Positions 168-60,953 of a DNA stretch of 62,970 nt are shown here, one piece after another (position 1 is the stretch's first letter; every line of letters starts with the position of its first letter). The notes under the pieces are model-generated. The model saw only the letters and a list, made by a program, of their open reading frames with translations, searched no databases and was not told where the DNA came from. The DNA is from Halonatronum saccharophilum DSM 13868. GTDB lineage: Bacteria; Bacillota; Halanaerobiia; Halobacteroidales; Halobacteroidaceae. The DNA is taken from assembly GCF_000517025.1 (NCBI RefSeq), contig NZ_KI912097.1, positions 609,943-672,912 of the forward strand, given 5' to 3'. Both the position numbers and the translations under genes were made by a program.

Positions 168-1042
168 GTGTTACAGCTAATATTTATGGTTTTTTTACAG
201 GCCAACGATATGATAAATTCGATAAGTGTTAAAATCAAGGTCAAGGGCTGTGTAACCATGCCCTGAAAGAAATGCCCTTGGGGTGCTGTATGTCCAGCGA
301 AGCTGGACATATCCAATGGGTGAAAGTCCCATCAAGGTAAAAGCCGAAGCCTTGTAGCACGAATGGCAATGTGGAGAGAAATCAAAATGTTGAAGTCCAT
401 TGACAAAGGTATCTAAAGGATACCGAGCAAATATGCAGACCGTAACACCAGTGAACGCATAGTAGCTTCGAAAGGGGTAAAATCTGATGGTCGAGCCTTT
501 AGCGTCTGGGCGAAGACAGAATGTATAGATGAAAATGGCTGAAACATCTATACACATCAGCGGAGTATTAGCGATGGTATGTATATAAGGATATGTTCGG
601 AACTGGAGAAGCCCTCCTTCTTCCTGTGAGAAATCACTTGAGAACTGAAGGTTCTATAATCGAGACCCGAGAAATGAACTGGAAAAGAAGAGGGTGGCGG
701 ATGGGTTTGTAGTAGCTAAAATTGTGAAGACAACAAAACTTCATATAGCGAAGAGACCCTACTATTAATAAATTCTCCGACACTAGAGGAGGTAAGGATG
801 AAATGATAAAAGCATCCATCAATTTACAAGACTTGAGAAGGAGAATATATCTTAAACTGAACGTGAAATACCTACTGGAAATGGATTAGCTAATTACATA
901 GTGAAAGTTGAAAGTAGTTTAACCTAATAAGGTTTAATGATGAAGTTAATAGGAAAGCCGTATGCGGGAGAACCGCACGTACGGTTTGAGGTGGCGGGGA
1001 CTGGGAATCTAACTTAGTTAATGCACCAGACTTCGACCCTAC
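168..1042 (+). ncRNA. ORF-less group II intron (full-length copy)
   Basis: A group II intron domain V hairpin lies at about 954-989 (AAGCCGTATGCGGG, GAGA-type loop, CCGCACGTACGGTTT), followed by a domain VI-like stretch ending CGACCCTAC at 1042. Upstream sequence is structured, RNA-like and has no reverse transcriptase frame; the long antisense frame is not a believable gene. The 3' end is fixed well because the flank starting AATGGACACG reappears at 1416 beside a truncated copy. The 5' end is uncertain. One reading starts at GTGTTAC (168), because 225-287 resembles domain I of the intron at 7446 (GTAAC..GCCCTGA..CTTGGGGTGC). The other starts at GTATG (288), since the second copy is missing exactly 288-1042. 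With no ORF it would need a maturase from elsewhere. Confidence 0.7.
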
Positions 1043-1306
1043 AATGGACACGAATAGGCACTAATAAAGTCAAGAGATAAAAATCAAAGGATATACTCTG
1101 ACAAAGGCTGGACAAGTGCCGACAAGGTCTAGACAAGAGCATAAAAACCTTTAGTGGCAGCTAATTAACGCGAATCAAGCGAATCTAAAACCAAAAATTA
1201 AGGGCCAACTGGACATAGATGAATGAAGGCAGGGCCAACGATATACAGTCACTTTGAGGTTATGGACCAACGGAAGCGAGAGTAGCCGACCAACATTCTA
1301 CTAAGG
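1043..1306. repeat. Intron flank and dispersed repeat words
   Basis: Bases 1043-1098 (AATGGACACGAATAGGCACT onward) reappear almost unchanged at 1416-1470, so this block is duplicated. It continues into GCCGACAAGGTCTAGACAAG (about 1113-1132), a word of the dispersed palindrome family. A short GGCCAACGATAT fragment at about 1225 is a third scrap of the intron-like segment. No gene is seen. Confidence 0.5.
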
Positions 1307-1415
1307 GTGTTGGTTGTTTTTTTGCAAGGCCAACGATATGACAAATACGATAAGTGTTAAAATCAAGGTCAAGGGCTGTGTAACCATGCCCTGAAAGAAA
1401 TGCCCTTGGGGTGCT
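1307..1415 (+). ncRNA. Intron-like segment lacking its interior
   Basis: Bases 1327-1415 match 199-287 nearly base for base (GGCCAACGATATGA ... CTTGGGGTGCT), then jump directly to the flank that follows the full intron at 1043. Here the segment begins GTGTTGG, and the GTTGG can pair with GCCAAC downstream, as a group II domain I stem would. It is either an intron copy that lost 755 nt internally or an unoccupied insertion site. Confidence 0.55.
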
Positions 1416-1489
1416 AATGGACACGAATAGGCACTAATAAGGTCAAGAGATAGAAATCAAAGGATATACTCTGACAAGTGCCGACAAGG

Positions 1490-1645
1490 TCAAGGACTCA
1501 ATTAACTAGATATGAAATTAAAGGTAGGTCGATAGAAGTTGCTGATATTACTTTTTTGTTGAATAAAGAAAATAAAATAAAATTATACAATTATTTTGTA
1601 ATGATTAACAGGATAAACAGTTTTTATGATGAATATTATTATTAG
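1490..1645 (+). pseudogene. Possible start-less coding remnant
   Basis: A frame without a start codon reads TRYEIKGRSIEVADITFLL and on to NKENKIKLYNYFVMINRIN before a TAG near 1643. The composition looks protein-like, but I recognise no family and there is no ribosome-binding site. It may be the tail of a gene cut by the upstream insertions. Low confidence. Confidence 0.2.
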
Positions 1646-1706
1646 GTTTATTTGTTCAAAGCCAGTAGATTTTTAAATAATATGATTTGAAAGGTGGTGA
1701 ATTCAA

Positions 1707-1919
1707 ATGAGTTCTGATATTTCTATTAAAGATCTTCAATCGAAGGACATTGATTTATTGGAGAGGGAAGAGGCAATTGCCCTTTTAAGACATTTAAAAG
1801 ATCAGTTTTCAAATAGATATGAATATTTAGTAGGAACTTGGAGTAATTCTCCAAAAGCTAAAAGTACAAAGACTGGTAAAATCGTGCCTAATAAAGAAGT
1901 AATTGATTATCTTAAATAA
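1707..1919 (+). CDS. Small hypothetical protein, 70 aa
   Basis: The start is supported by GGTGG upstream with normal spacing. The product is 70 residues: an acidic, helical N-terminal half (DLLEREEAIALLRHLKDQFS) and a basic, Ser/Thr/Lys-rich tail. There is no membrane segment and no motif I can name. It stands alone between two group II introns, ahead of the defence-like operon at 2735, with different neighbours on each side. It could be a small regulator or an element passenger; no function is proposed. Confidence 0.55.
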   Translation: MSSDISIKDLQSKDIDLLEREEAIALLRHLKDQFSNRYEYLVGTWSNSPKAKSTKTGKIVPNKEVIDYLK

Positions 1920-2081
1920 ATAAGGTGATTAATAACTTGGATTAGTCATAGATTTGAATATTTTAGTTTAAAACGTAGTAGCAAAGAGAGTTTAGCGAAA
2001 TTTAGATATCTGTCTGAATATGAGAATAGGTTAGTGGCGAGATTGTAGTTGTAATAAGTGAGCTAAGGGTTTATTGTGAAA

Positions 2082-2610
2082 GTGCGACCAACCCTTGAAA
2101 TAACAGGGTCAAATTATATCTTAGGATGTCTAAGTCTATTAAAAAATAGACGTTTATCTTAGGAGTAAAGGTAGAATTTGAGACAGTATGAATCGGTTAA
2201 GGTATAGAACTTGCTAAGCACAATGATTTTCTGAAATGGTTAGGCAGGTTAACAGCAATGTTGATACAGTAGCTAGTGGGTAGAGGAGATAGAAAGATGC
2301 GAAGGCTATCTTATAATGATATAGATAAGGGTTCAAAAATTACCTTACTCCCAAAGGAGGCTGACTTCCTAAGAGGTGGCTTGAGGTTGGAAGGGATAAG
2401 AACTTTGTGAATGTGGCAAGCCAAATTACTCTGATGAGTGGGCGACCACAGACTACTAAAGTTAACAGACTGGTATTCTGAAATGCTAGATAGCAGATTA
2501 TATCTGTTATCGCCAATCCGAAGGTTGGGTCAAGCTGCTTGAGCTGTATGACGGGAAACTGTCACGTACAGTTCTGATGGGGGAGAGGAGCCGAGAGGCT
2601 CCCGACCTAC
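2082..2610 (+). ncRNA. Short ORF-less group II intron
   Basis: It starts with the consensus GTGCGACC at 2082 and has a clear domain V at about 2538-2572 (GAGCTGTATGACGG, GAAA loop, CTGTCACGTACAGTTC). A domain VI-like hairpin GGGAGAGGAGCC/GGCTCCCGACC follows, ending CTAC at 2610. At about 529 nt with no reverse transcriptase frame it is a compact RNA-only intron. It lies about 125 nt upstream of the nuclease-like gene and 160 nt downstream of the small gene at 1707, so it interrupts no recognisable frame. Boundaries are judged from consensus ends only. Confidence 0.7.
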
Positions 2611-2734
2611 CAGATTTTAATCTAACTGTATTTTCTGTGTTAATTTTTAAATTAGGACAAGCATATAAATAATTTTTATCTTTAGAAGTTTTAGAAATAA
2701 TGACTATTAATATTGCACTAAGGGAGGGATTAAT

Positions 2735-4282
2735 TTGTCTACATCACTTATTAAAAAAGAGAAAAATTTTCATGATGCTACTCCCACTTGGAATGGATTC
2801 AATTATCAAGGGAAAGTAGCAATTTATATACTTTTAAGAGAATTAAACAATGATGATATAGACAGTTATAATAATTACTTTTTAGAGTTGGAGTGGCTTG
2901 AAGATTTTTCTATAAAGAAAAGAGATACATATATATCTATTCACCAAGTAAAAGCTTATAACAAAAGTAATTTTAGTAAATATAAAGATGCAATATTTAA
3001 TTTAATAAAGAAGGTAATAGATTATAATTTAGAAATTAAAGCATATATACATAGTTGGAAAAATATAGATGATTGGAATGAAGAGAATATAAAAGATAAA
3101 TTTAATAAAGGTATTGAGTCATTAATTGAAAAGCTTGAAACTTATATTAGTAATAAAAATAAACTAAAAAAATTTATTAATAAATTTATAAATAAAAAAC
3201 AGATGACTGATATAGAAAAAATATTAAAAGATGAAATTATTAATTATAGTAACAAGACTGAAATTATAAATATGAAAGAAGATAATAATTTTGAACAAAT
3301 CAAGGAAATAATAAAGAAAGCAATTAATATTATAGAACGAAAAAAGATATCATTATACAAAAAAATTACAAAAGGTGATAATTTTAAAGTAGTAATGAAT
3401 AATTTGAAATCAGAGTTTCATGAAATAGAGGATATAAATAATTCAATAAAAAAAGAGATAGAAATTTATTATAAAAAGCAAGGTGAAGATCATAAAATAA
3501 ATGCTTTTAATATAGAGAGAGTTTTTGAGAATTTTTTGGGTAAGATTGATGAACATATAATTCAAAGGCATAAAAATTTTCAACAAGATGAAAAATTAGT
3601 TATACCTTTTTTAGAAATAAAGAATATATTAGAAGAAGATTTAGAGCAACCTAGTAAAAAATATTTCTTATATCATTTAAAAAATGTATTTAATGATACA
3701 CGTAATAAGTATTGTAATTTTTATTGTCAAAGAGTTAAAGTACAAGGAGATTGCAATAATTGTATTTTAAAGCTTCTGATTAAAAAAATTAATAGTCTTG
3801 ATTATTATCAATTTGAGTTATTATGTAAAAATATTAGTCCTGATGTAAATGCAGAAGTAATTGATATGAAAGTTTATAAAATTTTAATGTCAGAAGATGG
3901 ACTTTTGCAATCATTTTTAACATGTTTTGAAAGAATTAGTTTAGAATATTTATGGGATAAGCATAAACCTATTTATCACTATGAAAGTAATACAGGAATA
4001 GATACATATTTACCTACAACATTACGTTCTAAGGGATCGGAAGAATTAGTAATTACTCAAATATTTACTAACCCACATTTTTTAGAAGAATTGTATGAAG
4101 TTGATAATATGATTTCTAATGATATAAACATTAATTCATTAATAGAAGAATATGCTAAAATAAAAAACACACAAATTTTTTTGAAAAAGGAGCAAGGTAT
4201 TGGTTCTAAAATAACAGAAATAGGTAATATGAGCATAATAGGTGTTGAAAAAGCAATAGAGGAGTTGAGTGATAATGAATAA
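2735..4282 (+). CDS. ABC-three-component-like protein with PD-(D/E)XK-like N-terminus
   Basis: 515 aa with a TTG start behind GGGAGGG. The N-terminus has PTWNGFNYQG (17-26), then E53/D57 and a QVK triplet (71-73) in the order E..D..QxK. That is the layout of PD-(D/E)XK nuclease-like domains in DUF4297/Cap4-type and ABC-three-component defence proteins. The middle is lysine-rich and helical, with CNFYCQ...CNNC around residue 330, a possible zinc site. The C-terminus (PTTLRSKGSEELVITQI) resembles the short C-terminal domains of such systems. It is the first gene of a tightly coupled three-gene operon with a small middle protein and a Rad50-like ATPase. I infer an anti-phage effector or target-recognition role; nuclease activity is not proven. 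Confidence 0.6.
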   Translation: MSTSLIKKEKNFHDATPTWNGFNYQGKVAIYILLRELNNDDIDSYNNYFLELEWLEDFSIKKRDTYISIHQVKAYNKSNFSKYKDAIFNLIKKVIDYNLEIKAYIHSWKNIDDWNEENIKDKFNKGIESLIEKLETYISNKNKLKKFINKFINKKQMTDIEKILKDEIINYSNKTEIINMKEDNNFEQIKEIIKKAINIIERKKISLYKKITKGDNFKVVMNNLKSEFHEIEDINNSIKKEIEIYYKKQGEDHKINAFNIERVFENFLGKIDEHIIQRHKNFQQDEKLVIPFLEIKNILEEDLEQPSKKYFLYHLKNVFNDTRNKYCNFYCQRVKVQGDCNNCILKLLIKKINSLDYYQFELLCKNISPDVNAEVIDMKVYKILMSEDGLLQSFLTCFERISLEYLWDKHKPIYHYESNTGIDTYLPTTLRSKGSEELVITQIFTNPHFLEELYEVDNMISNDININSLIEEYAKIKNTQIFLKKEQGIGSKITEIGNMSIIGVEKAIEELSDNE

Positions 4283-4997
4283 GTTGTTAGAAAAAATATT
4301 TATTGAGAGTGGATTTCGGATTTATTATCCTAAATTTTTAGAAGATGGTCAAAATAAAAATTTTTTTGCTGTCAATGAAAGCATTAATAAAAAAGAGTAT
4401 TTTTTAATAACTTTTTTTGATTATATTAGTAAGAAGAAATTGACAGATTTAATAAATCGACAAGCTTTTGAATACTATTCAAATTTAAAAAAGCTTAGTT
4501 TTTATGAGAAAGAGATGCAGAAAAATACATCTTTAATCATCTGTTTAAAAGAAAAAAAATTAACACTAGATAGAGATAAAAAGAAATCTATTTATGAAGT
4601 AGAAGAAGATTTATATAATTTTAAAAAATATGTTTTAGTTTATACAGAAAGGCAAATACAAGATTTTGAATCTAATTATATAACTTATAAGCCTAGAGAA
4701 ATTAAGTTAATAAAACATCTTCAAAATATTTTAAACAATTCTAAATCATTTAAACAATTTAAGTTTAATCTAGAGGAAGATACATTCTATAATTTAATCA
4801 CTAAACTATTTATAAAACTTCCTTTTTTAAATTTAAAAACATTAAAATCTGCAACATTGGAAAATTTGGAACAAAAAATAAAAGAAGAATTAAAGATTAT
4901 CGAGACATTTGATTTTATTGATACTATATTACAGAAAAATGAAATAGAAGATATGGATGAGGAAAATTTTCTGAGTGAAATTGGGGTGATAGAGTGA
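4275..4997 (+). CDS. Middle component of ABC-three-component-like operon
   Basis: 240 aa from ATG 4275, which overlaps the stop of the upstream gene and sits 10 nt after AGAGGAG; a GTG at 4269 is the alternative. The N-terminus (KIFIESGFRIYYPKFLEDG) is followed by alternating beta and alpha segments, with an acidic C-terminal tail. No catalytic motif is visible. Proteins of this size between a nuclease-like gene and an SMC/Rad50-like ATPase are the 'middle component' of ABC-three-component systems. I assign it from position and length, not from a recognised domain. Its stop overlaps the ATPase start (GTGA), indicating translational coupling. Confidence 0.5.
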   Translation: MNKLLEKIFIESGFRIYYPKFLEDGQNKNFFAVNESINKKEYFLITFFDYISKKKLTDLINRQAFEYYSNLKKLSFYEKEMQKNTSLIICLKEKKLTLDRDKKKSIYEVEEDLYNFKKYVLVYTERQIQDFESNYITYKPREIKLIKHLQNILNNSKSFKQFKFNLEEDTFYNLITKLFIKLPFLNLKTLKSATLENLEQKIKEELKIIETFDFIDTILQKNEIEDMDEENFLSEIGVIE

Positions 4998-7387
4998 GTA
5001 AATATAGGATAAATAAATTATATATAAATAATTTCAAGTTATTTGAAGAAGTAAAAATTGATTTTTCTAAAGGTGATATAATAATTTTAGATGGACCTAA
5101 TGGCTTTGGAAAAACTACCATCTTTGATGCGATAGAATTATTATTAACTGGAAAAATATCTAGGATGGTTGATGTTGCAGATAATAGACGTGGATGTCAT
5201 GATATTATAATTTGTAATGATGAGAATGAAGATGTATTGATTAAAGTTGAATTTGAATCATTAGAGGATAAATTTACTTTAATAAAAAAGATTGATAATA
5301 AAAACATTGAATATACCAATATGGATAGGAGGAGTTCTGAATTAAATAAATTATTTAAAACTTATAAGGTAAAAGAATTTGATTCTGAATTTAATGATAA
5401 TAAAGAAATTGAACAAAAAGATGTAGATAAATTATTTGATATAGATTTATCTAGATTTTATAGCTTATTTTATTATATTCAGCAGGAAGACAATACTTAT
5501 TTTTTAAAGAAAAATGAAAAAGAAAGAATGGATACTATAAAATATTTATTTGATACATATAAAGAAGAAAATGAATTAAAAAAATTGGAAAAAGCAAAAA
5601 ATAAATTATTAAGAATATATAAAAAAATTATGAAAAAAAAGAAGATATAAAAGAAAATATAAAGCTAAAAACAAAAATATTTCAAAAATACAAGAAGCAG
5701 ATGAAAATATTAGCTATAAATGTTTGTTTCCCGAACTAAAAATATCAAAAGAATGGGACAGAAAAAGAATAAATGTTGAGTCTAAGAAGAAAAAGGATAA
5801 ATATAAAAGGGAATTAGATGCCATTGAAAATTTTATAAAATATTTTTCAGAATTTAAGAAGGATCAATTTAATAAGAAATTAAAACTTCGATTAGAGGAT
5901 ACAAAATTACTAAAAGATACAATTATTATAGCAAACTTTATTGATGGATTTGATAAAATAAAGTAAAATATCAGATTCAAAAAAGATTAGAAAAATATAA
6001 CAAAATATTAAAAAGTAAAAAAATAGAAGATATTAATAAAAAAATTGATTTAAAAAAGTTACCTAAAAAGCTTAAACTAAATGTTGATATAAATAATATT
6101 AATCAGAAATTAAATAGTATCTTGAAATATAAAGAAAATTCTTCTGAGCTATCTAAGTTAGTTGATGAATTAAATATAACAAGGAGTTCATTAAAAGATC
6201 AATTTAATAAAATAACTAATGAAAATAATAATATAATTAATAATAGATGTCCATTATGTGGTTATGGTTGGGAGAATTATAATAAATTAATTAAACAAAT
6301 TGAAAAGAAAAAGAAGAAATTTATTGTTTTTTGTGATGAAACAATGAAAAAAGTTCAAAAAGAAATAGAAGAATTATATAGTAATCACCTAGAAGGATTA
6401 ATTTCAAGTATTGATAATTATTTAGATAAAGAAGAGAATAAAATTAACAATAATTTTTATAAGCAGTTAAGTAGTAGTTATAATAGAGTAGACAAAGTTA
6501 AAAGCTTAATTAAATTTTGTAAAAACCAAAGAATTAATTTAACAAAACACATTAATAAAAAAATTAATAGAACTATAGGAAATATCGATGAGGAAGTAGA
6601 AAAATTAAAAGAAGAGATTCGGAAAAGACATAAAATAGTTAATGAAGAATATTATTACAAAAGAAATGAAGATAATTTTGACTATTTATATAAAGAGTTA
6701 TTTAATGAAAAAGAGAAAAATGTATCAAATTTAAATATAAAACTTATAAAGCAGAAGAAATCTTATATTGATTATTTATATTACAATAATGTTATTCAAG
6801 AAATTAAAAATATGGAAGAAAATAAAGAAAAATTGGAATCTAAACTAGAAAAAATAGAAGATAAATTAAAGTCTTTAAAAAGTAGTATTAAAATTTATAA
6901 CACTTGTATAAAAGAACATTGGGGTAAAATAATTAAAAAAGTTGAGATTCCGTTCTACATATACAGTGGTAAAATTATACAAGACTATCAAAGAGGAATA
7001 GGTATATTTATAAAAGGAAGTGAAGATAAAGAAGAACTAGATAGTATAAAGTTTGTACCTAATCTAAAGACGGATCATGATGTAATAAATTATTTAAGTT
7101 CTGGTCAGTTATCTGGATTAGTAATAGCATTTACTTTGGCACTTAATAAAGTTTATGGTAATAGAAAATTAACAACTGTTTTAATAGATGATCCGGTGCA
7201 AACAATGGATGATATTAATATGGCTTGTTTTGTAGAAGTATTAAGAAATGAATTCTCAAACAAACAAATTATTATGTCGACTCATGAAGATAATGTTTCA
7301 ATGTATATGAGATATAAATTTGCTAAATATAACTTAAAGCAAGTTAGATTTAATGTAAAAGAAAGGCTTAATGATGTTTTAGGTTAA
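4994..7387 (+). pseudogene. Rad50/SMC-like ABC ATPase with two compensating frameshifts
   Basis: The reading frame starts at GTG 4994 and shifts +1 near an A8 tract (5633-5640). It then shifts back by -1 near AAAA at about 5948-5955, so the total length still equals 798 codons. The N-terminal part has Walker A GPNGFGKT (34-41). The middle is coiled-coil with a zinc-hook-like CPLCGYGW encoded near 6249. The C-terminal part has the ABC signature LSSGQLSG, Walker B TVLIDDP and an H-loop MSTHED. This is the ATPase of the operon, expected to work with the two preceding proteins in DNA sensing or processing. Either the ATPase is inactivated, or the frames come from homopolymer errors or from slippage. 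All catalytic motifs survive and only about 110 coiled-coil codons lie in the shifted frame. Confidence 0.75.
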
Positions 7388-7445
7388 TTAACTATAATTT
7401 AAAATAGTATAAACAGATTAAACTTCAGATAACATAAGGTTAGCG

Positions 7446-9319
7446 GTGCGATTTGTTGTAATTTGAAAAGAATTACCTAAAACTGATAAATGTTTTAGAA
7501 CTAAAAGACTTGACTAATCAAATGAAGAGGTAACGCCCTGAGAGAAGCGATTTTTGCTTCTTGAGGAAGTACTCTTGGGGTGCGCCTGGAAGGGTTAGAG
7601 TTGATACTCCGAACTGCAAAGTTATTATTAAGAATTACTTTGTGGTAGAGCTCGGTAAAGTCGGCTGAGAGCAACCCCTAATTATAGGAAATGTAGCTAG
7701 AGGTAGCCAAGGTTGTGATAGGTCGGACACCCATAAAATATCCAAGACTAGAATGTCTTTGTGAGAGACTGACGAAATTCCGAATGTACAGGTCTAAAGT
7801 TCAAATAACTAGAAATAGTTATATCCCTTATAGGCTTAACAACCTAACGTAATAAATTCACGGAGATTGAAGTATCTGAGGTTAAGTAAGATTCGCTAAT
7901 ATGAACAACCTTATATGATTACAGGTCATATCAAGGATACAGGCTTATAGGAGTGGTCTAAAGATATATGTACGGGAAAAGTCTTTTGGAACAAAGAAAG
8001 CTAATAACAAGGAGAGCTTAATCTCAATGAATTGGTGATAGAGTAAGGAATATATAATCTATCTTTATATTAGTGAGAGTAGTGGCACAGTACCTATGAA
8101 ACTATGATAATAAATAGTGGAGGGATAGCCATAAGTGAAATAAAATGATAATAAAAGTTATTAATATAGTAGTGCGACTTGTTGCTAAATGAAAAGTTTA
8201 GCCTAACAATGAAGTTAGAACTAAAAGACTTATTAGTCAAATGAAAGGGTAACACCTTGAAGGGCTAACAATGATACTCCGAATTGCATTATCTAAATTA
8301 AGATAGATAATGTAATAAGCTCGGTGAAGTCGGCTGAGAGCAACCCCTAATTATAGGAAAAGTGGCTAGAGGTAGTCAAGGTTGTGATAGGTCGGTTGCC
8401 TATAAAATATCTATGATTAGAATGTAGGATAATATCCTACTGACAAATCTCTGAATGTACAGGTCTAAAATTCAAATAATCAGAAATGATTATGCCAACA
8501 AAGTTTTGGCGTATATGGGGTGAGTAAGATTTGCTGTTATGAAAGTCCTTATATCCTTATAGGGGATATACTCTTAATAGAGATATACAGGCTTATAGGA
8601 GAAATCTAAGGATATATGTAAAGGTAAAGTCTTTTGGAACAAGGAAAGCTAATAACACGGAGGTCTTAATACCTATGAAGTGGTGGTATGGAAACTAATT
8701 ATAGATAACATACCTTAATATTAGTGAGAGTAGTGGTAAAGTACCGTTGAAACCTTGATAATAAGAGGTGGAGGAATAGCCACAAGTCAATGTATTAGAT
8801 TAATATAATTTTATTATTTAACACATAAGGTTCTGGTGAGACTAAGAGAGCAGGGTTAATTCCCGAAGACAGGCTTCTATAGGAACAACTAAAGGAAGTT
8901 CTAAGCGACTTATGACTACACTTAGAGAAACTTTGAGGAGCTACACACAAGCTATGAGCCAGAGTTTCGAGTTCTAAGTTAGGAAATAGTAAAATCCACA
9001 TAATTTAATACACTTGATGGAACGCCGTGTGAGGTGAAAGTCTCACGCACGGTGTGGAGCGGGGGAAAAGTTGGAGATAATATCAAATTCTTACCTATCG
9101 TTATCATTGGTTTCTGGTGAGACTAAAAGAAAGTTAGGGAAGAAAGTTTTATCTTCCAATCCTTGCCCAATGGGACTTCAATAGAAGTTTTCAGCTATAT
9201 ATGATAAATAGTAATAATTATCTTATTTTCATAGAACGCCTTGTGAAGTTGAAAACTTCATGCAGGGTGTGGAGCAGGGGAAAAAGCGGAGATAATATCA
9301 AAGTTTTACCTATTGCTAT
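7446..9319 (+). ncRNA. Outer group II intron of a twintron, interrupted at 8171/8172
   Basis: The 5' end is GTGCGATTTG at 7446. Domains I-III run to about 8135, and the sequence breaks off in domain IV at 8171. It resumes at 9105 with CATTGGTTTCTGGTGAGAC, domain V at about 9234-9272 (AACGCCTTGTGAAGTTGAAA...) and ends CTATTGCTAT at 9319. The break holds a complete second intron of the same class. Equivalent blocks in the inner intron (AGCCATAAGT versus AGCCACAAGT, and the shared TTCTGGTGAGACTAA word) let the two halves be matched. No reverse transcriptase frame exists in either intron. The site lies between the ATPase gene and the transferase-like gene at 9412. Confidence 0.75.
8172..9104 (+). 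ncRNA. Inner group II intron of a twintron
   Basis: It starts GTGCGACTTG (8172) and has domain V at about 9021-9057 (AACGCCGTGTGAGG, TGAAAG, TCTCACGCACGGTGTGG). It ends CTATCGTTAT at 9104, matching the CTATTGCTAT end of the outer intron. Its length is about 933 nt with no open frame of its own. It is closely related to the intron that contains it: both carry GGCTAGAGGTAG and TTGTGATAGGTCGG (near 7687-7734 and 8351-8395). It is inserted in the outer intron's domain IV, a position that often tolerates insertions. Confidence 0.75.
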
Positions 9320-55425: not shown

Positions 55426-55604
55426 TTCTTTACCTCCCTTCTTTTTATAGTCTTCCATAAAAGTTTTTAATTATAAGAGGTAAAAAGTGCAGATGAATAA
55501 AATAAACTTCTTGCAGGAGTTTATGAATTTTTGTTTAAATTCTATTTTAAAGAAGTGTTTACTTATATATTGGTTATTTATCACCAAAGAAAGGAATGGT
55601 TTTA

Positions 55605-55991
55605 ATGTCAAAATATAAAGGAAAGTTAAACAGACAATTTCCTGCTAAAATAAGTACTACTGCTTTTACATCAATTTATATACTTCACCTATTACAAAAT
55701 TATGATAAAATGTATGGTCAAAAAATCTTAGATACCATTAACCAGCAGATGGGAACTAGGTGGAAACCGTCAAGGGGAATGGTTTATCCACTATTAAGAG
55801 AGATGGAGGAAGAAGGTTATTTGAAGGCTTGGTGGGATGAGCCAGATAAGAGATCAATTCGTTACTATAGAATAACTGATAAAGGAGCAAAACACTTAGA
55901 GAATATGAAGATAAAGTACAAGAGTTCCTTTAAAGATGCACTAAAGATAGTTAAAACCGCTATAGATGAAATCTATGGTGGGAAGGTATAA
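55605..55991 (+). CDS. PadR-family transcriptional regulator
   Basis: 128 aa from ATG 55605, 9 nt after AAGGA; the ATG at 55596 is too close to that site. Winged-helix PadR pattern: YILHLLQNYDKMYGQKILDT, RWKPSRGMVYPLLREMEEEG, YLKAWWDEPDKRSIRYYRIT and DKGAKHL. PadR proteins usually repress neighbouring genes in response to phenolics or other small molecules; the target here is not evident. The next gene encodes rubredoxin, in a separate unit. Confidence 0.88.
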   Translation: MSKYKGKLNRQFPAKISTTAFTSIYILHLLQNYDKMYGQKILDTINQQMGTRWKPSRGMVYPLLREMEEEGYLKAWWDEPDKRSIRYYRITDKGAKHLENMKIKYKSSFKDALKIVKTAIDEIYGGKV

Positions 55992-56207
55992 TTATTTTTT
56001 TACCTCAAATATCCATGGGATATGTTGACAAACAAACAGCAATCAATTATAATTAATAGTAGTAATTATTGTTGATTCATTTTCTTTTATCTTCTTTCAT
56101 TGCAATAGATTCCATAAATTCAAAATAATAATTTGGATTTAATTTATAAAAGGTAAGGAAGATGATTACAATAATTAATAGCATTAAACTTAAAAGGAGG
56201 AGTTAGC

Positions 56208-56369
56208 ATGGCTAAGTATGAATGTACTGTATGTGGTTATGTATATGATCCAGAGGTAGGAGATCCAGATAGTGGAGTTGAAGCTGGAACTGCTTTTGAA
56301 GATATTCCAGATGATTGGGAATGTCCTTTATGTGGTGTAGGGAAGGATATGTTCGAAAAAGTTGAATAA
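56208..56369 (+). CDS. Rubredoxin, 53 aa
   Basis: A short gene with ATG after AAAAGGAGGAG. Two CxxCG metal-binding pairs ([14 protein letters not shown] with C6/C9, and [13 protein letters not shown] with C39/C42) bind one iron. Length and the aromatic residues Tyr4, Tyr11, Tyr13, Trp37 are typical. It is a cytoplasmic one-electron carrier common in anaerobes, often serving oxygen or peroxide detoxification. It is monocistronic with its own terminator. Confidence 0.96.
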
Positions 56370-56393
56370 AAAGTTAAACATATTTAATAAAAA

Positions 56394-56420
56394 TGGGGCC
56401 TTAATATGGCCTCGTTTTTA
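56394..56420 (+). terminator. Rho-independent terminator after rubredoxin gene
   Basis: GGGGCCTTAATATGGCCTC forms a hairpin with one G-T pair, then GTTTTT. Confidence 0.7.
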
Positions 56421-56558
56421 GATTTTATAAAATTAATTTATGGTGAAGTTGGTTATTTTAATTATTGTGAGATATAATAACATTGTAGTAATTAATTTTA
56501 TCTTCTCCTTTGACTAAAAGTATTTAGATTACAAATACTAAACTTGAGGGGGGATATA

Positions 56559-56882
56559 ATGAGAATTGATAAGGATAAAAGGGCTGCAGGTATAATTGAT
56601 GGTGATTATTGTCTACAAGTTGCTAGTGATATGTTAGAGAGATTTCAAGAAGAAGAGTTAGAAAATGATGGCTTTAATAGTTTAGAGATGTTAGCAATTA
56701 AGGCTGTATTTGATGATTTATTTGAAAATAATATTAAATCTAAGTATAAAGAGGGAAGAAATGAAGTCTTGAATTTACTCAATGGCTTACAATCATATGA
56801 GGATAGGGAGTTTATGGACGAGAGAGATTCTTTTGATAGTAATATAGTTAATATTTTTGATTATGCAAACAAGGAAGATTAA
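56559..56882 (+). CDS. Hypothetical protein, 107 aa
   Basis: The start at ATG 56559 follows TTGAGGGGGGATATA. The protein is acidic and helical (YCLQVASDMLERFQEEELEN; MLAIKAVFDDLFENNI), with a C-terminal segment FDSNIVNIFDYANKED. No membrane helix or motif is recognised. It stands alone. A weak hairpin (GAGGGGTTTACCTCTC) just after the stop may end transcription. Confidence 0.65.
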   Translation: MRIDKDKRAAGIIDGDYCLQVASDMLERFQEEELENDGFNSLEMLAIKAVFDDLFENNIKSKYKEGRNEVLNLLNGLQSYEDREFMDERDSFDSNIVNIFDYANKED

Positions 56883-57043
56883 TAGGGTCGAGGGGTTTAC
56901 CTCTCTATCCTCCCTCAGTTGCAATAAACAGCTTTTGTTAGTCATATAAAATCAGATCTATACATATATACTAGAGCAATCTTATAAAATTGCTTTGCTT
57001 TAAATAATAGATTTATAGATGAAATTAAAGGAAAAAAGATATA

Positions 57044-57077
57044 TTTGTCTAATTGTTATATTAAAGTATTAGACAAA
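57044..57077. promoter_or_regulatory. Inverted repeat upstream of lipoprotein gene
   Basis: TTTGTCTAA (57044-57052) and TTAGACAAA (57069-57077) are perfect 9-bp inverted copies about 35 nt before the lipoprotein start. It could be an operator or an mRNA hairpin. Confidence 0.4.
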
Positions 57078-57111
57078 AAATATAATTAAATAAATTAAGG
57101 GGGCAAGAAAA

Positions 57112-58887
57112 ATGAAAAGTTTATTTAGAAAGAAGATTGGAATATTAGCAATATTATTAGTAGGAATTTTGGCCTTAGTTGGATGTAGAGGTGAAAGCCT
57201 TTCTGATTTAACTGTGGAGCTTAATACTGAAGCTGAAGTTACAATCTCTAGAGAGGGAGAAAGTAAGACTGAATCAGGTAAAATAGTACAATTTGAGGGC
57301 TTACCAGAAGGAGAATATGATTTAGTAACTAAAGCAGATGGTTATGATGATCTTAAAACTATAATTGTATTAGGAGAAGATGACCTTATTGTTCCTTTAG
57401 AATTGGATAAAATTGAAATTAAGCCTGTTGAAGAAGAGAAGGTAGTTAAAGAAATAGTTAAGGTTGATTTAGTTATTGATATTTCTGATATTAATGAGAA
57501 TGAATTAGATGCTAAGGTTATTTTGAAAAAAGATGGACAGACTATAGCTACAAAAGAAGGATCTAAGATGACATTTGAAGAATTAGAGCCTGGCGAATAT
57601 ACTCTTGAAGTAATTAAAGATGGTTATGATAAGATAATTAAAGACGTTACTTTAGGAGAAGGGGATGCAGATATATCTTTACATGTTCTTGGAGGAAATG
57701 TATCACAATATTATGTGGATAGTAGTGAAGAGTATATTTTAATTGAAGATGTAGCTGAGGGTGAAGAGTTGTTAGTAGGGATTTCTTATTTAGATTTAGA
57801 GAATTTTGAAGCTAGACTTAATCTTGATAATTTTCATGATAGGATGGCAAAGGTTGAATATGATGCAAGAAAAAAAGGTTTTGAATTGATTGAAAGGTAT
57901 GGGGATGATTTAAGTATATTTAAAAATGAGTATACTTTAGGTGATAGTAAATTATTTACTTTACCTAATGGTGTTAGAGAAGAAGATGTAAGAGCTACTT
58001 TAGAAGGAGTAGGAAAGAACATCCATGTATTTGTAGATAATGATTATGATATTGATTTTAATACGGTGGATAAGTTGATAAATGATTTCGATAATGTTAT
58101 TTATCCAGGTCTAACAGATGGTCAGAATAGAGATGAAGTAATTGTACTTTTAACTGATTTTGATCACTTAGATATAACAGGTTACTTTAATCCAGCTGAC
58201 TTATATGAGGGATATGGAAATGAAGAAGCGGTATTTTATTTGAATGCAGACAGAGGTGTGAATACACTGTTAGGAGCAGCAGCACACCAATATCAGCACT
58301 TAGTATTCTTTTTAAATAAAGCAAGGGCCAACCGTGTGGCAAACGATGCTTGGATTGATGAAGGGTTAGCACAAAATGCTTCTATTCTAGCAGGTTATAT
58401 CGATGCAGAGAAGTCTGGATGGTCTCAAGATGGAGGAAATGGTTGGGTTTATGATAAGGACTTTGGTTATTTAAATAATACCCAAGAGGTTAATTTATTA
58501 GCTTATGATGGTAGGTTGGCATCTGGTGGAGCTACTTCTTTATTTGCTACTTATATTCTTGAGCAGTATGGTCCAGAGTTGATTAATCAGATTATGATAA
58601 GCTCTAATGATCCTAAAGATGTTATTGAAGAATTTACAGGTGAGAAATTTAATAAAATCTACTTAAATTGGATGACTGCAAATATTGCAGATAGAATTCC
58701 TGAGATAGATAGTAGAGTTTATAACTACTCTAGCTTTGAGATTCAAGAGTTCCCAGCTTTTAATGATCAAGTAAGTAGAGATGGTATAACTTACTTGAGA
58801 TTTGAAGGAGAGGGTGGAGATATATCTATTCCATTACCTGAGTATGAAGGGGAATTAGGAGTTGTAGTTATTAGAAAGAATAAATAG
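57112..58887 (+). CDS. Lipoprotein with M30-like peptidase domain lacking the catalytic Glu
   Basis: 591 aa. A lipoprotein signal peptide ends at Cys25 (ILALVGC). Two PEGA/carboxypeptidase-regulatory-like repeats follow (FEGLPEGEYDLVTKADGYDD; FEELEPGEYTLEVIKDGYDK). The C-terminal half resembles hyicolysin-type (M30) zinc peptidases: AAAHQYQHLVFFLNK and AWIDEGLAQNASI. The usual HExxH is HQYQH here (H392, Q393, H396), because codon 58288-58290 is CAA, not GAA. The third ligand region with E417 is kept. The protein is probably on the outer face of the membrane. It may be an inactive, binding-only relative. It is monocistronic with a strong terminator. Confidence 0.75.
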   Translation: MKSLFRKKIGILAILLVGILALVGCRGESLSDLTVELNTEAEVTISREGESKTESGKIVQFEGLPEGEYDLVTKADGYDDLKTIIVLGEDDLIVPLELDKIEIKPVEEEKVVKEIVKVDLVIDISDINENELDAKVILKKDGQTIATKEGSKMTFEELEPGEYTLEVIKDGYDKIIKDVTLGEGDADISLHVLGGNVSQYYVDSSEEYILIEDVAEGEELLVGISYLDLENFEARLNLDNFHDRMAKVEYDARKKGFELIERYGDDLSIFKNEYTLGDSKLFTLPNGVREEDVRATLEGVGKNIHVFVDNDYDIDFNTVDKLINDFDNVIYPGLTDGQNRDEVIVLLTDFDHLDITGYFNPADLYEGYGNEEAVFYLNADRGVNTLLGAAAHQYQHLVFFLNKARANRVANDAWIDEGLAQNASILAGYIDAEKSGWSQDGGNGWVYDKDFGYLNNTQEVNLLAYDGRLASGGATSLFATYILEQYGPELINQIMISSNDPKDVIEEFTGEKFNKIYLNWMTANIADRIPEIDSRVYNYSSFEIQEFPAFNDQVSRDGITYLRFEGEGGDISIPLPEYEGELGVVVIRKNK

Positions 58888-58892
58888 TATCA

Positions 58893-58930
58893 AAAAAAGC
58901 TGCTAGCGAAAGTCGCTAGCGGCTTTTTTA
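58893..58930 (+). terminator. Strong rho-independent terminator
   Basis: AAAAAAGCTGCTAGCGA and TCGCTAGCGGCTTTTTT form a long stem after the lipoprotein gene. Confidence 0.85.
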
Positions 58931-59129: not shown

Positions 59130-59378
59130 ATGAGTTTTAAAGAAGATTTGATTAAAAAGATCAAAGAGTCACCTGATATTTATAATGAGATAAGAGTAGA
59201 AAGTTTAATTAATAGTATGGATCCTTTTGGAGATAGAGAGGTCTTTGAATATATTTATGATACTCAAGAGGATAGAACTTTAGAGACGTTAGGTGATGAA
59301 GAGTTGATTGATTCTTTACTAAGGAATTTAAAGTATTATATTGAGTATGAACGGGAAATGGGCGAGAGCGACATTTAA
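59130..59378 (+). CDS. Hypothetical protein, 82 aa
   Basis: ATG, with GGTGGGGAAG some distance upstream (about 12 nt spacing). An acidic helical protein (DLIKKIKESPDIYNEIRVES; SLLRNLKYYIEYEREMGESD). No family is recognised. It lies 16 nt before another small gene on the same strand, so the two probably form one transcript; terminator-bounded, with no clear toxin or antitoxin features. Confidence 0.6.
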   Translation: MSFKEDLIKKIKESPDIYNEIRVESLINSMDPFGDREVFEYIYDTQEDRTLETLGDEELIDSLLRNLKYYIEYEREMGESDI

Positions 59379-59394
59379 AGGAGGGGATGAACAA

Positions 59395-59628
59395 ATGGCA
59401 GAAGATATTGAACAATTTTTAAAGTATGGAGGCGTTAAGTTTGAATATAAGGCTCCTGAAAGGGAAGTTTATAAATTTGTGAATAGTCTTCCAGAAGAAA
59501 AGAGAAGTAGCATAGCAGAAGTTAGCAAAATATTAGAAGAAGAAGGCTATATAGATCTAAAACCTGAGTTTAGTACAATAGATCAGGAATTGTTAGATGC
59601 TCAAGTAGAAGAAAATAGAAGGATATAA
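59395..59628 (+). CDS. Hypothetical protein, 77 aa
   Basis: ATG 59395 after AAAGGAGGGG. An acidic helical protein with AEDIEQFLKYGGVKFEYKAP, KFVNSLPEEKRSSIAEVSKI and LEEEGYIDLKPEF. No membrane or metal motif is seen. It is second in a two-gene unit with the 82-aa protein; the pair is followed directly by a very long terminator stem. Function unknown. Confidence 0.6.
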   Translation: MAEDIEQFLKYGGVKFEYKAPEREVYKFVNSLPEEKRSSIAEVSKILEEEGYIDLKPEFSTIDQELLDAQVEENRRI

Positions 59629-59678: not shown

Positions 59679-59744
59679 ATGTGGTATTTTTAATTTTGAA
59701 ACTTTAGTTAATTAAGATTAGAATTATTTAAGTTCATTAAAGTT

Positions 59745-59855
59745 TTAATCATAGTTCTTTAGCTGATTAAATAATGCTTCAATGTATTCTTGCATTGTTA
59801 TTTCTTGGTTAATAAATTTGTTGATTAAATTACTCTTAATCATATTTTTTTTCAT
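59745..59855 (-). CDS. Possible 36-aa minus-strand peptide
   Basis: A minus-strand frame starts at 59855 and encodes NLINKFINQEITMQEYIEAL and a short polar tail. AAGGAG lies about 13 nt before the start, slightly far. It lies in the 59629-60038 gap, where nothing else is seen. No family is recognised. Confidence 0.3.
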   Translation of the reverse strand: MKKNMIKSNLINKFINQEITMQEYIEALFNQLKNYD

Positions 59856-60038
59856 TATTTCAAATCAGCTCCTTAATTTTATTTTCTTATTACTTAGTAT
59901 TCTTTAAAAGTAATTATATAATACTAGTAATGCTTACCTATAAAAGAGAGAATACTTTAGAATTTAAGTAGAATTGAATAAAATAAGAAAAAAATGAAAT
60001 AATAATAGTAAAATATAATTATAAAATGAGGCAAAAAT

Positions 60039-60953
60039 ATGTTGAGAAAGAATTTTGCTTGGGTGTTTTTTGTTATTGTAACATTATCGCTTCTTGGAAG
60101 GGCAGAAGCTAGTCTTGGGTTCGGGAAGGAGAATCTTTATATAACCCAACCCTATTTGAAGGGAGAAAAAGTATTTTTCTTACAAGAAATTTTAAAGATA
60201 TTAGACTATTATGAAGGGGATGTTGATGGTATATACGGGCCAACAACTGCCCAAGCAGTAGGCGAGTATCAAAAATCTAGGGGGATGGATAAGGACTTTA
60301 AAGTTGATAAGAAATTATGGGATGATTTATTGACTGAGATGAAGGTAAGTGGAGAGAAGTTAGATAAGCCTGAGGGAAAGGTTTTGATAATTATAGATAT
60401 TCCAAGCCGATTACTAAAGGTTTACTCAGACAAGAAGTTATATAAGGAGTTTAGGGTCGCTGTTGGTAAGAAGTCGACTCCAAGTCCAGTAGGCGACTGG
60501 AAGATCAATCAAAAAGCTAAATGGGGTGGGGGGTTTGGAACAAGATGGATGAAATTAAATGTTCCTTGGGGAAAGTATGGTATTCATGGAACCAATAAGC
60601 CTAACTCTATAGGTTGGGCAGCTTCTCATGGTTGTATAAGGATGTTAAATCGTGATGTGGAAGCTTTATATGATTGGGTTAATGTTGGCACTAGAGTTCA
60701 TATTCGCTCAGGTGAATTTCACCCTTTGAGACTACCATTGAAAGAATTGAATTTAGGTAGTAGAGGGAGTAATGTAATGGTAGTACAGAAAAGATTAAAG
60801 CAATTAGGTTATTTTAATTATAACCCTGATGGTATCTATAGAATTGGCACTAAAGCTGCAGTTAAAAAGTTTCAACAGGATAATGGTTTACAGGATATTG
60901 GGATAGTAGACGATAAGACTTATCGTAGGTTAAATTTAATATTATTTGAATAA
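60039..60953 (+). CDS. L,D-transpeptidase with two peptidoglycan-binding domains
   Basis: 304 aa with a secretion signal (about 1-25, FVIVTLSLLGRAEA). A peptidoglycan-binding domain (VFFLQEILKILDYYEGDVDG) is followed by the YkuD catalytic domain: GKKSTPSPVGDW, YGIHGTNKPNSIG and the active Cys199 in SHGCIRM. A second binding domain (VMVVQKRLKQLGYFNYNPDG) closes the protein. It forms L,D cross-links in cell-wall or spore peptidoglycan outside the membrane. It precedes the sporulation regulator gene, but in a separate unit. Confidence 0.93.
   Translation: MLRKNFAWVFFVIVTLSLLGRAEASLGFGKENLYITQPYLKGEKVFFLQEILKILDYYEGDVDGIYGPTTAQAVGEYQKSRGMDKDFKVDKKLWDDLLTEMKVSGEKLDKPEGKVLIIIDIPSRLLKVYSDKKLYKEFRVAVGKKSTPSPVGDWKINQKAKWGGGFGTRWMKLNVPWGKYGIHGTNKPNSIGWAASHGCIRMLNRDVEALYDWVNVGTRVHIRSGEFHPLRLPLKELNLGSRGSNVMVVQKRLKQLGYFNYNPDGIYRIGTKAAVKKFQQDNGLQDIGIVDDKTYRRLNLILFE

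Follow-up and report, generated by a model that had tools for sequence, protein, structure and literature searches.

The gene at 57112 to 58887 of the 62,970-nucleotide stretch of Halonatronum saccharophilum DSM 13868 DNA analysed here (contig NZ_KI912097.1, assembly GCF_000517025.1; hereafter the window) encodes a lipoprotein in which the zinc motif of an M30-type peptidase reads HQYQH where HEYQH is expected, and it raises the question of whether this is a peptidase gene with one unusual base or a peptidase domain given up for some other use. Comparison with relatives showed that the gene belongs to a fixed pseudopeptidase clade and is not one gene with one odd base; the preliminary description of the DNA, which placed the protein a single base from an active enzyme, was right in its first observation and understated it. 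As far as sequence comparison can tell, the gene probably encodes a conserved non-catalytic binding lipoprotein with an M30-like fold. Homologs with Gln at the catalytic position are called Gln copies below, and those with Glu are called HE copies. The features discussed are as follows:

55602 to 55991, + strand: gene for a PadR-type regulator, a conserved neighbour
56559 to 56882, + strand: gene for a 107-residue protein, directly upstream, found in 7 of the 59 class genomes
57112 to 58887, + strand: the whole gene, encoding a 591-residue lipoprotein pseudopeptidase with an M30-like fold; single intact open reading frame with ATG start
57112 to 57186, + strand: signal peptide and lipobox, ending at Cys25 (LVG-C), by pattern
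57193 to 57408, + strand: PEGA/CnaB-like beta domain 1 (residues 28-99), from Pfam, repeat comparison, AF2 and fold match
57457 to 57693, + strand: PEGA/CnaB-like beta domain 2 (residues 116-194), from the same four sources
57826 to 58884, + strand: M30-like domain (residues 239-591; AF2 pLDDT 87, pTM 0.89; lugdulysin Z 26-27)
58285 to 58299, + strand: HQYQH (residues 392-396), with Q393 (CAA, 58288-58290) replacing the catalytic Glu
58360 to 58362, + strand: E417 (GAA), the third zinc-ligand position, within WIDEGLA
58411 to 58434, + strand: 8-residue insert (residues 434-441) with G436-W437-S438, invariant in 10/10 Gln copies and missing from 13/13 HE copies
58504 to 58506, + strand: Y465, Trp in the HE copies
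58525 to 58527, + strand: G472, Tyr in the HE copies and aligned with lugdulysin Y315
58893 to 58929, + strand: terminator-like hairpin of 17 pairs, directly 3' of the gene
59130 to 59628, + strand: two small conserved neighbour genes (59130-59378 and about 59395-59628), beyond the terminator

The 591-residue protein matched only itself in its own genome at E ≤ 0.01. A lipobox and two PEGA-like repeats had been proposed for its N-terminal part, and both were recovered. By pattern, the signal peptide and lipobox Cys of a bacterial lipoprotein are present, acylation being putative, and the lipobox recurs in all ten Gln copies. Pfam matches to PEGA (25.5 bits, cut-off 20.8, one stretch only) and to SpaA prealbumin-like (25.9 bits, cut-off 23.1) place the N-terminal part among these families, and the two beta domains are mutual repeats (34% over 70 columns, a score reached by 0 of 1000 shuffles). 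AF2 modelled residues 26-239 as two beta-sandwiches, for the most part at a pLDDT of about 90, joined by a disordered linker at about 45, with an overall pTM of 0.46, so that the relative placement of the two sandwiches is not given by the model. Searched singly, the beta domains had CnaB-type folds among their matches, for example 8bdw (TM by target 0.63-0.66), indicating a CnaB2-like fold. Beyond the N-terminal part, Pfam gave no match over cut-off, and an NCBIfam search with the 591-residue protein returned nothing.

The larger C-terminal domain was assigned from its model. The AF2 structure of residues 239-591, computed from an alignment of 22 rows of which 12 were HE copies, had as its best solved match lugdulysin (PDB 7bb8), according to the PDB an M30 zinc metallopeptidase of Staphylococcus lugdunensis. 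Foldseek gave E values of 2.0e-11 and 5.9e-11 (TM 0.56-0.66; its own rmsd 10.2 and 4.8 Å) and VIA-align gave Z scores of 26.2 and 27.2 (2.7-3.0 Å, 291-312 residues aligned), the runners-up in the latter being M1 enzymes and collagenases with Z of about 12. The 22-row family profile searched against the PDB likewise found lugdulysin (E 6e-39), while phmmer with the window protein alone found no match there. An M30 fold and a sequence alignable with a solved peptidase of the M30 (hyicolysin/lugdulysin) family are thus both present, as the preliminary description had supposed in calling the domain M30-like. The Pfam M30 model PF10460 did not match the window protein and exceeded its cut-off of 25.8 bits in 0 of the 22 domains tested, with none of the 10 Gln copies matching and one of the 12 HE copies reaching 14.1 bits; its search of the whole genome was also empty, an absence which means little, as 0 of 14 control genomes matched. 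M78, M1 and DUF2268, other MA-type zinc-peptidase models, matched some members weakly.

HQYQH is the sole H-x3-H of the protein, which has no HE dipeptide at all, and a profile built from the 12 HE relatives only aligned their HEFQH with HQYQH and their WINEG with WIDEG (E 1.6e-66 in a one-protein search). The possibility, raised at the outset, that the true HExxH lies elsewhere in the protein is thereby excluded, and the reading of the catalytic Glu as Gln (CAA) proved correct. The statement that one base separates the protein from an active enzyme was not supported, since the Tyr aligned with lugdulysin Y315, which we take to be catalytic from the choice of a laboratory mutant and from related zincins, is Gly472, and the Trp invariant in HE copies is Tyr465. 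At position 393 all 10 copies of the clade, from all eight genomes of the family, have Gln, with an identical CAA codon, and the other 13 have Glu; Trp465 and Tyr472 are each found in 13/13 HE copies and 0/10 Gln copies, the latter position holding Gly, Ser, Met, Thr or Leu in the Gln copies. HE copies of the same family and class share the domain with the window protein and differ from it by Glu393, Tyr472 and Trp465, with all zinc ligands kept.

The claim that both His residues and E417 are kept holds for the window copy, which has all three ligand positions (H392, H396, E417) and may still bind zinc, and fails for the clade: the first His is Arg in 2/10 Gln copies, and the third-ligand Glu is Gln in 5/10 (L003, L004, L005, L009 and L027, with a CAA codon in all five). 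All three ligands are kept in three of the ten Gln copies, the window copy included, and are incomplete in seven of the other nine. Eight columns are invariant in Gln copies and absent from HE copies (I304, V345, Q393, G436, W437, S438, N443 and I587), and none of these is acidic, so no substitute base is visible. That the protein might still be an enzyme, using another general base or other chemistry, is improbable for these reasons: Tyr472 has gone as well as Glu393, and other Gln copies carry R392 or Q417. In its favour are the His and Glu ligands of the window copy and the report that a protein taken for a pseudoenzyme can be active through residues that have migrated (PMC10211241). As far as sequence goes, the window copy in particular might keep some unusual residual activity despite the loss of catalytic residues.

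The fold is thus retained while HExxH with its catalytic Glu and the Tyr equivalent to Y315 are both replaced, and with PF10460 below cut-off we call the protein a non-peptidase homologue with an M30 fold and not an M30 peptidase. A retained fold, replaced essential catalytic residues and a conserved protein together are what would be expected of a metallo-pseudopeptidase, and annotating the Gln clade as a whole as 'zinc metallopeptidase' would mislead.

Whether relatives share the Gln, a check suggested with the first observation, was examined in 59 class genomes; a broader set of 61 genomes, also searched, included two from outside the class. A wider contig scan with the single protein as query gave one locus; the 22-row profile gave 24 matches in 17 of the 59 class genomes, of which a motif-less fragment was dropped and 23 were aligned, matches covering the N-terminal repeats alone being left out of the counts. 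Ten are Gln copies, from all eight genomes of the window's family (G000-G007, which we infer to be Halobacteroidaceae), with two each in G004 and G006, and the answer is therefore that all family copies of the clade share it. The 13 HE copies comprise four from the same family (two in G003, one each in G005 and G007) and nine from other families, and the sister family of the same order has copies in 0 of 5 genomes. Examples of HE copies (L023-L025, L064 and L010) are 24-35% identical to the window protein within the domain and have lipoprotein-like starts; HE copies are presumed to be active. Since all eight family genomes carry Gln copies (10/10), the change is not one stray mutation, and with HE paralogues in only three of the eight the dead form is the constant one.

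In a tree made without columns 392, 393, 417 and 472, the ten Gln copies form one side of a branch with support of 100/99, and the Glu/Gln difference requires one change of state, H392 one and E417 at least two. Branch order around the window copy inside the clade has no settled placement, four HE rows are long and unsure in position, and two rows (the HE copy L029 and the Gln copy L027) are of odd composition. Judged from these sequences, the loss of the catalytic Glu is old and family-wide and not recent.

NG86 dN/dS values for the domain were 0.175, 0.170, 0.066, 0.245 and 0.228 in five Gln pairs and 0.239, 0.276, 0.245 and 0.157 in four HE pairs of similar divergence, a fifth HE pair (0.326) being too similar in sequence to judge. 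Some members recur, in three pairs on the Gln side and in three on the HE side, and the values are therefore not independent. The ranges are alike, indicating purifying selection on the dead domain of about the same strength as on its HE counterpart. That the gene is a pseudogene in decay or the Gln a sequencing error, for which the single G-to-C step from GAA to CAA might speak, was accordingly rejected as scarcely credible: CAA is shared by 10/10 copies from eight genomes, dN/dS is well under 1, no inner stop occurs in any of the ten Gln copies and the neighbourhood is conserved in 7/8 genomes.

The same measurements bear on the idea that the peptidase domain is only a spacer in a lipoprotein whose role is structural or is to bind cell wall or sugar. 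PEGA/CnaB-like domains do resemble surface and pilin spacer modules, and an L,D-transpeptidase gene lies downstream (60039-60953). Set against this, dN/dS of the peptidase domain is below the whole-protein value in 5/5 Gln pairs, and the L,D-transpeptidase gene is not at the matching place in the relatives compared; we consider a spacer role very doubtful.

The reading that we prefer instead, a binding lipoprotein, can be set out as follows. An M30-type zinc-peptidase domain of an envelope lipoprotein would have been switched off for good and retained for binding. The protein would be exported and then acylated at Cys25, and the flexible linker and two beta-sandwich domains would hold the dead peptidase domain off the membrane, where its retained cleft might bind an extended peptide or an unfolded protein and not cut it. 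Its role at the envelope would then be that of a scaffold, a holder or an assembly factor, with the periplasmic side of a membrane favoured over the outside of the cell. That the protein may act by binding, as first suggested, is thus supported as a possibility. Of the 24 columns invariant in HE copies, 10 keep their residue in every Gln copy (N370, Y376, Q395, H396, W414 and G418 among them) and 14 are altered in at least one, so that binding in the cleft is conjectural and the conserved surface could lie elsewhere.

Another use of an inactive domain would be that of a sister or decoy regulating an active protease, binding its substrates or its body and altering its output. HE paralogues are present alongside Gln copies in three family genomes (G003, G005 and G007), the second Gln paralogue of G004 lies near the gene of an S8 subtilase lipoprotein (the equivalent place in G006 is cut off by a contig end), and CspC of Clostridioides difficile is reported to be a pseudoprotease regulator (PMC6636752). 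At E ≤ 1e-5 no HE paralogue turned up in five of the eight genomes with a Gln copy, which weakens the case for a strict regulator of an active M30 paralogue, and no protease gene is directly beside the syntenic Gln copy in the genomes compared, leaving regulation an unlikely explanation. A candidate link in G001 between the Gln gene and an S8 protease 3.4 kb away was rejected because that S8 has an F5/8C domain, which the lpt-linked S8s tested lack.

The location 'on the cell surface' given in the preliminary description is not established. Halanaerobiales are reported to have LPS outer membranes and LolA homologues, with no clear LptD/LptE (PMC5007114); in the window's own genome LolA (PF03548, Pfam) was not found. 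The second Gln paralogue of G004, like that of G006, stops 17 bases short of an LptF/LptG open reading frame, which is followed by another LptF/LptG gene and one for LptC (identified by Pfam in G004, and by likeness and an LptF/LptG search in G006). On the other side of the paralogue in G004 is an LpxD gene, and a 725-residue protein encoded between these genes has an LptA/LptD-N match below cut-off only. LptF/LptG are present in 8/8 family genomes, and the lpt-adjacent place has no Gln copy in the other six. Because the order is described as diderm and two genomes have a paralogue next to lptG/lptF, a periplasmic place is at least as likely as the surface; anchorage in either membrane could leave the lipoprotein facing the periplasm, and exposure on the cell surface is one option among these.

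The M48 periplasmic metallopeptidase BepA of E. coli is not known to be a lipoprotein, belongs to an unrelated family, is active as wild type and has a TPR domain instead of beta domains, so it serves as a working analogy only. As an LptD assembly factor it is a zincin reported to act on outer-membrane assembly partly without cleavage (PMC8423444), and its E137Q form is described as binding LptD more stably, converting LptD weakly, failing to complement and being dominant negative (PMC8423444, PMC7950410). As reported, this behaviour means that exchanging Glu for Gln is not enough by itself to yield a good chaperone; by analogy, the exchange can turn a zincin into a trap, and a trap can harm unless the protein is adapted, as the Gln clade appears to be. 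A bolder proposal gives the Gln-type M30 lipoproteins a part in building the outer membrane of diderm Firmicutes, as an assembly factor specific to this lineage and a naturally fixed 'trap' that holds immature LPS-transport or barrel proteins uncut. The one hint for a BepA-like role is the paralogue beside lptG/lptF in 2/8 genomes, and we consider the proposal improbable; if it is true, these proteins would account for one step of a pathway in which LptD/LptE were not clearly reported for these bacteria.

PDB titles and alignments allow a comparison with the closest solved protein: lugdulysin and the window protein share fold and motif positions, lugdulysin having HEYQH and the Tyr where the window protein has HQYQH and Gly472. 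The window protein further differs in being a lipoprotein and in carrying the extra beta domains, and relative to HE relatives it has the 8-residue insert. PDB 7bb9 is a laboratory mutant of lugdulysin, E242Q/Y315F; the window protein has the matching Glu-to-Gln change and has also lost the Tyr, so that nature and the laboratory have changed the same two positions. In the Gln clade a metallopeptidase inactivated in the laboratory has a natural counterpart that spans a whole family, three of whose genomes also carry HE relatives; it would offer a clean test case for the passage from peptidase to binding protein, in bacteria whose envelope assembly is poorly understood. ADAM7 (HQLGH) and inactive M16 and M41 homologues have likewise lost the general base, kept the fold and taken non-catalytic roles, in families different from M30. 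The main text of a review (PMC11266112) has no occurrence of 'M30', and HQXXH was met in open-access work on the metal selectivity of MMP8. A search of open-access literature, most of it at the level of listings and with subscription papers mostly outside it, turned up no description of an M30 protein that is inactive or of Gln type.

The order PadR-type regulator, 107-residue gene, Gln copy is found in 7/8 family genomes, the G001 copy being elsewhere, and exactly these seven genomes have the 107-residue gene, whose product belongs to no known family (its NCBIfam search was empty). No terminator-like site lies between the 107-residue and Gln genes and a strong one directly follows the Gln gene, so these two are probably co-transcribed, and the two small genes beyond probably belong to a separate transcript. 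The latter, followed by SpoVT, come after the Gln copy in six of the seven genomes (the G006 contig ends after the Gln copy). A functional link of the Gln gene to them and to SpoVT was not upheld and they are probably neighbours only, since the 77-residue gene occurs in 21/59 class genomes, including all five sister-family genomes, which have no Gln copy. No RNA near the gene reached Rfam gathering scores, three sub-gathering matches around 55900-57200 looking like chance, and promoter-like sites were no commoner than chance (29 against 30.9 in shuffles).

Several further observations were made in the course of the analysis. In G000, G002, G003, G005 and G007 the lptG/lptF pair has a gene for a subtilase-type lipoprotein immediately upstream; in G004 this gene lies beyond the Gln paralogue, and G001 has none there (genes L098:7774-9351, L099, L100, L102, L103 and L062:11334-12926, four of the six identified by Pfam and two by likeness). 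The PadR-type regulator at 55602-55991 (+) also exceeds the Pfam cut-off for the replication terminator protein RTP (34.7 against 26.7), with PadR scoring higher (61.6). A rubredoxin gene of 53 residues at 56208-56369 (+), below the usual open reading frame cut-offs, matches NCBIfam NF045768 (103.5 bits over 90), is preceded by a full TTGACA-17-TATAAT match at 56025-56053, and its DNA is conserved in place in five relatives. The intergenic stretch 59736-60015, with no clear open reading frame, has counterparts at the same place in five relatives, 69-78% similar along the whole stretch or a part of it. Finally, 314-9319 (+) contains seven Rfam matches to group II introns: those at 314, 7496 and 8216 are of D1-D4 type and the other four are to Intron_gpII, which suggests several intron copies or fragments.
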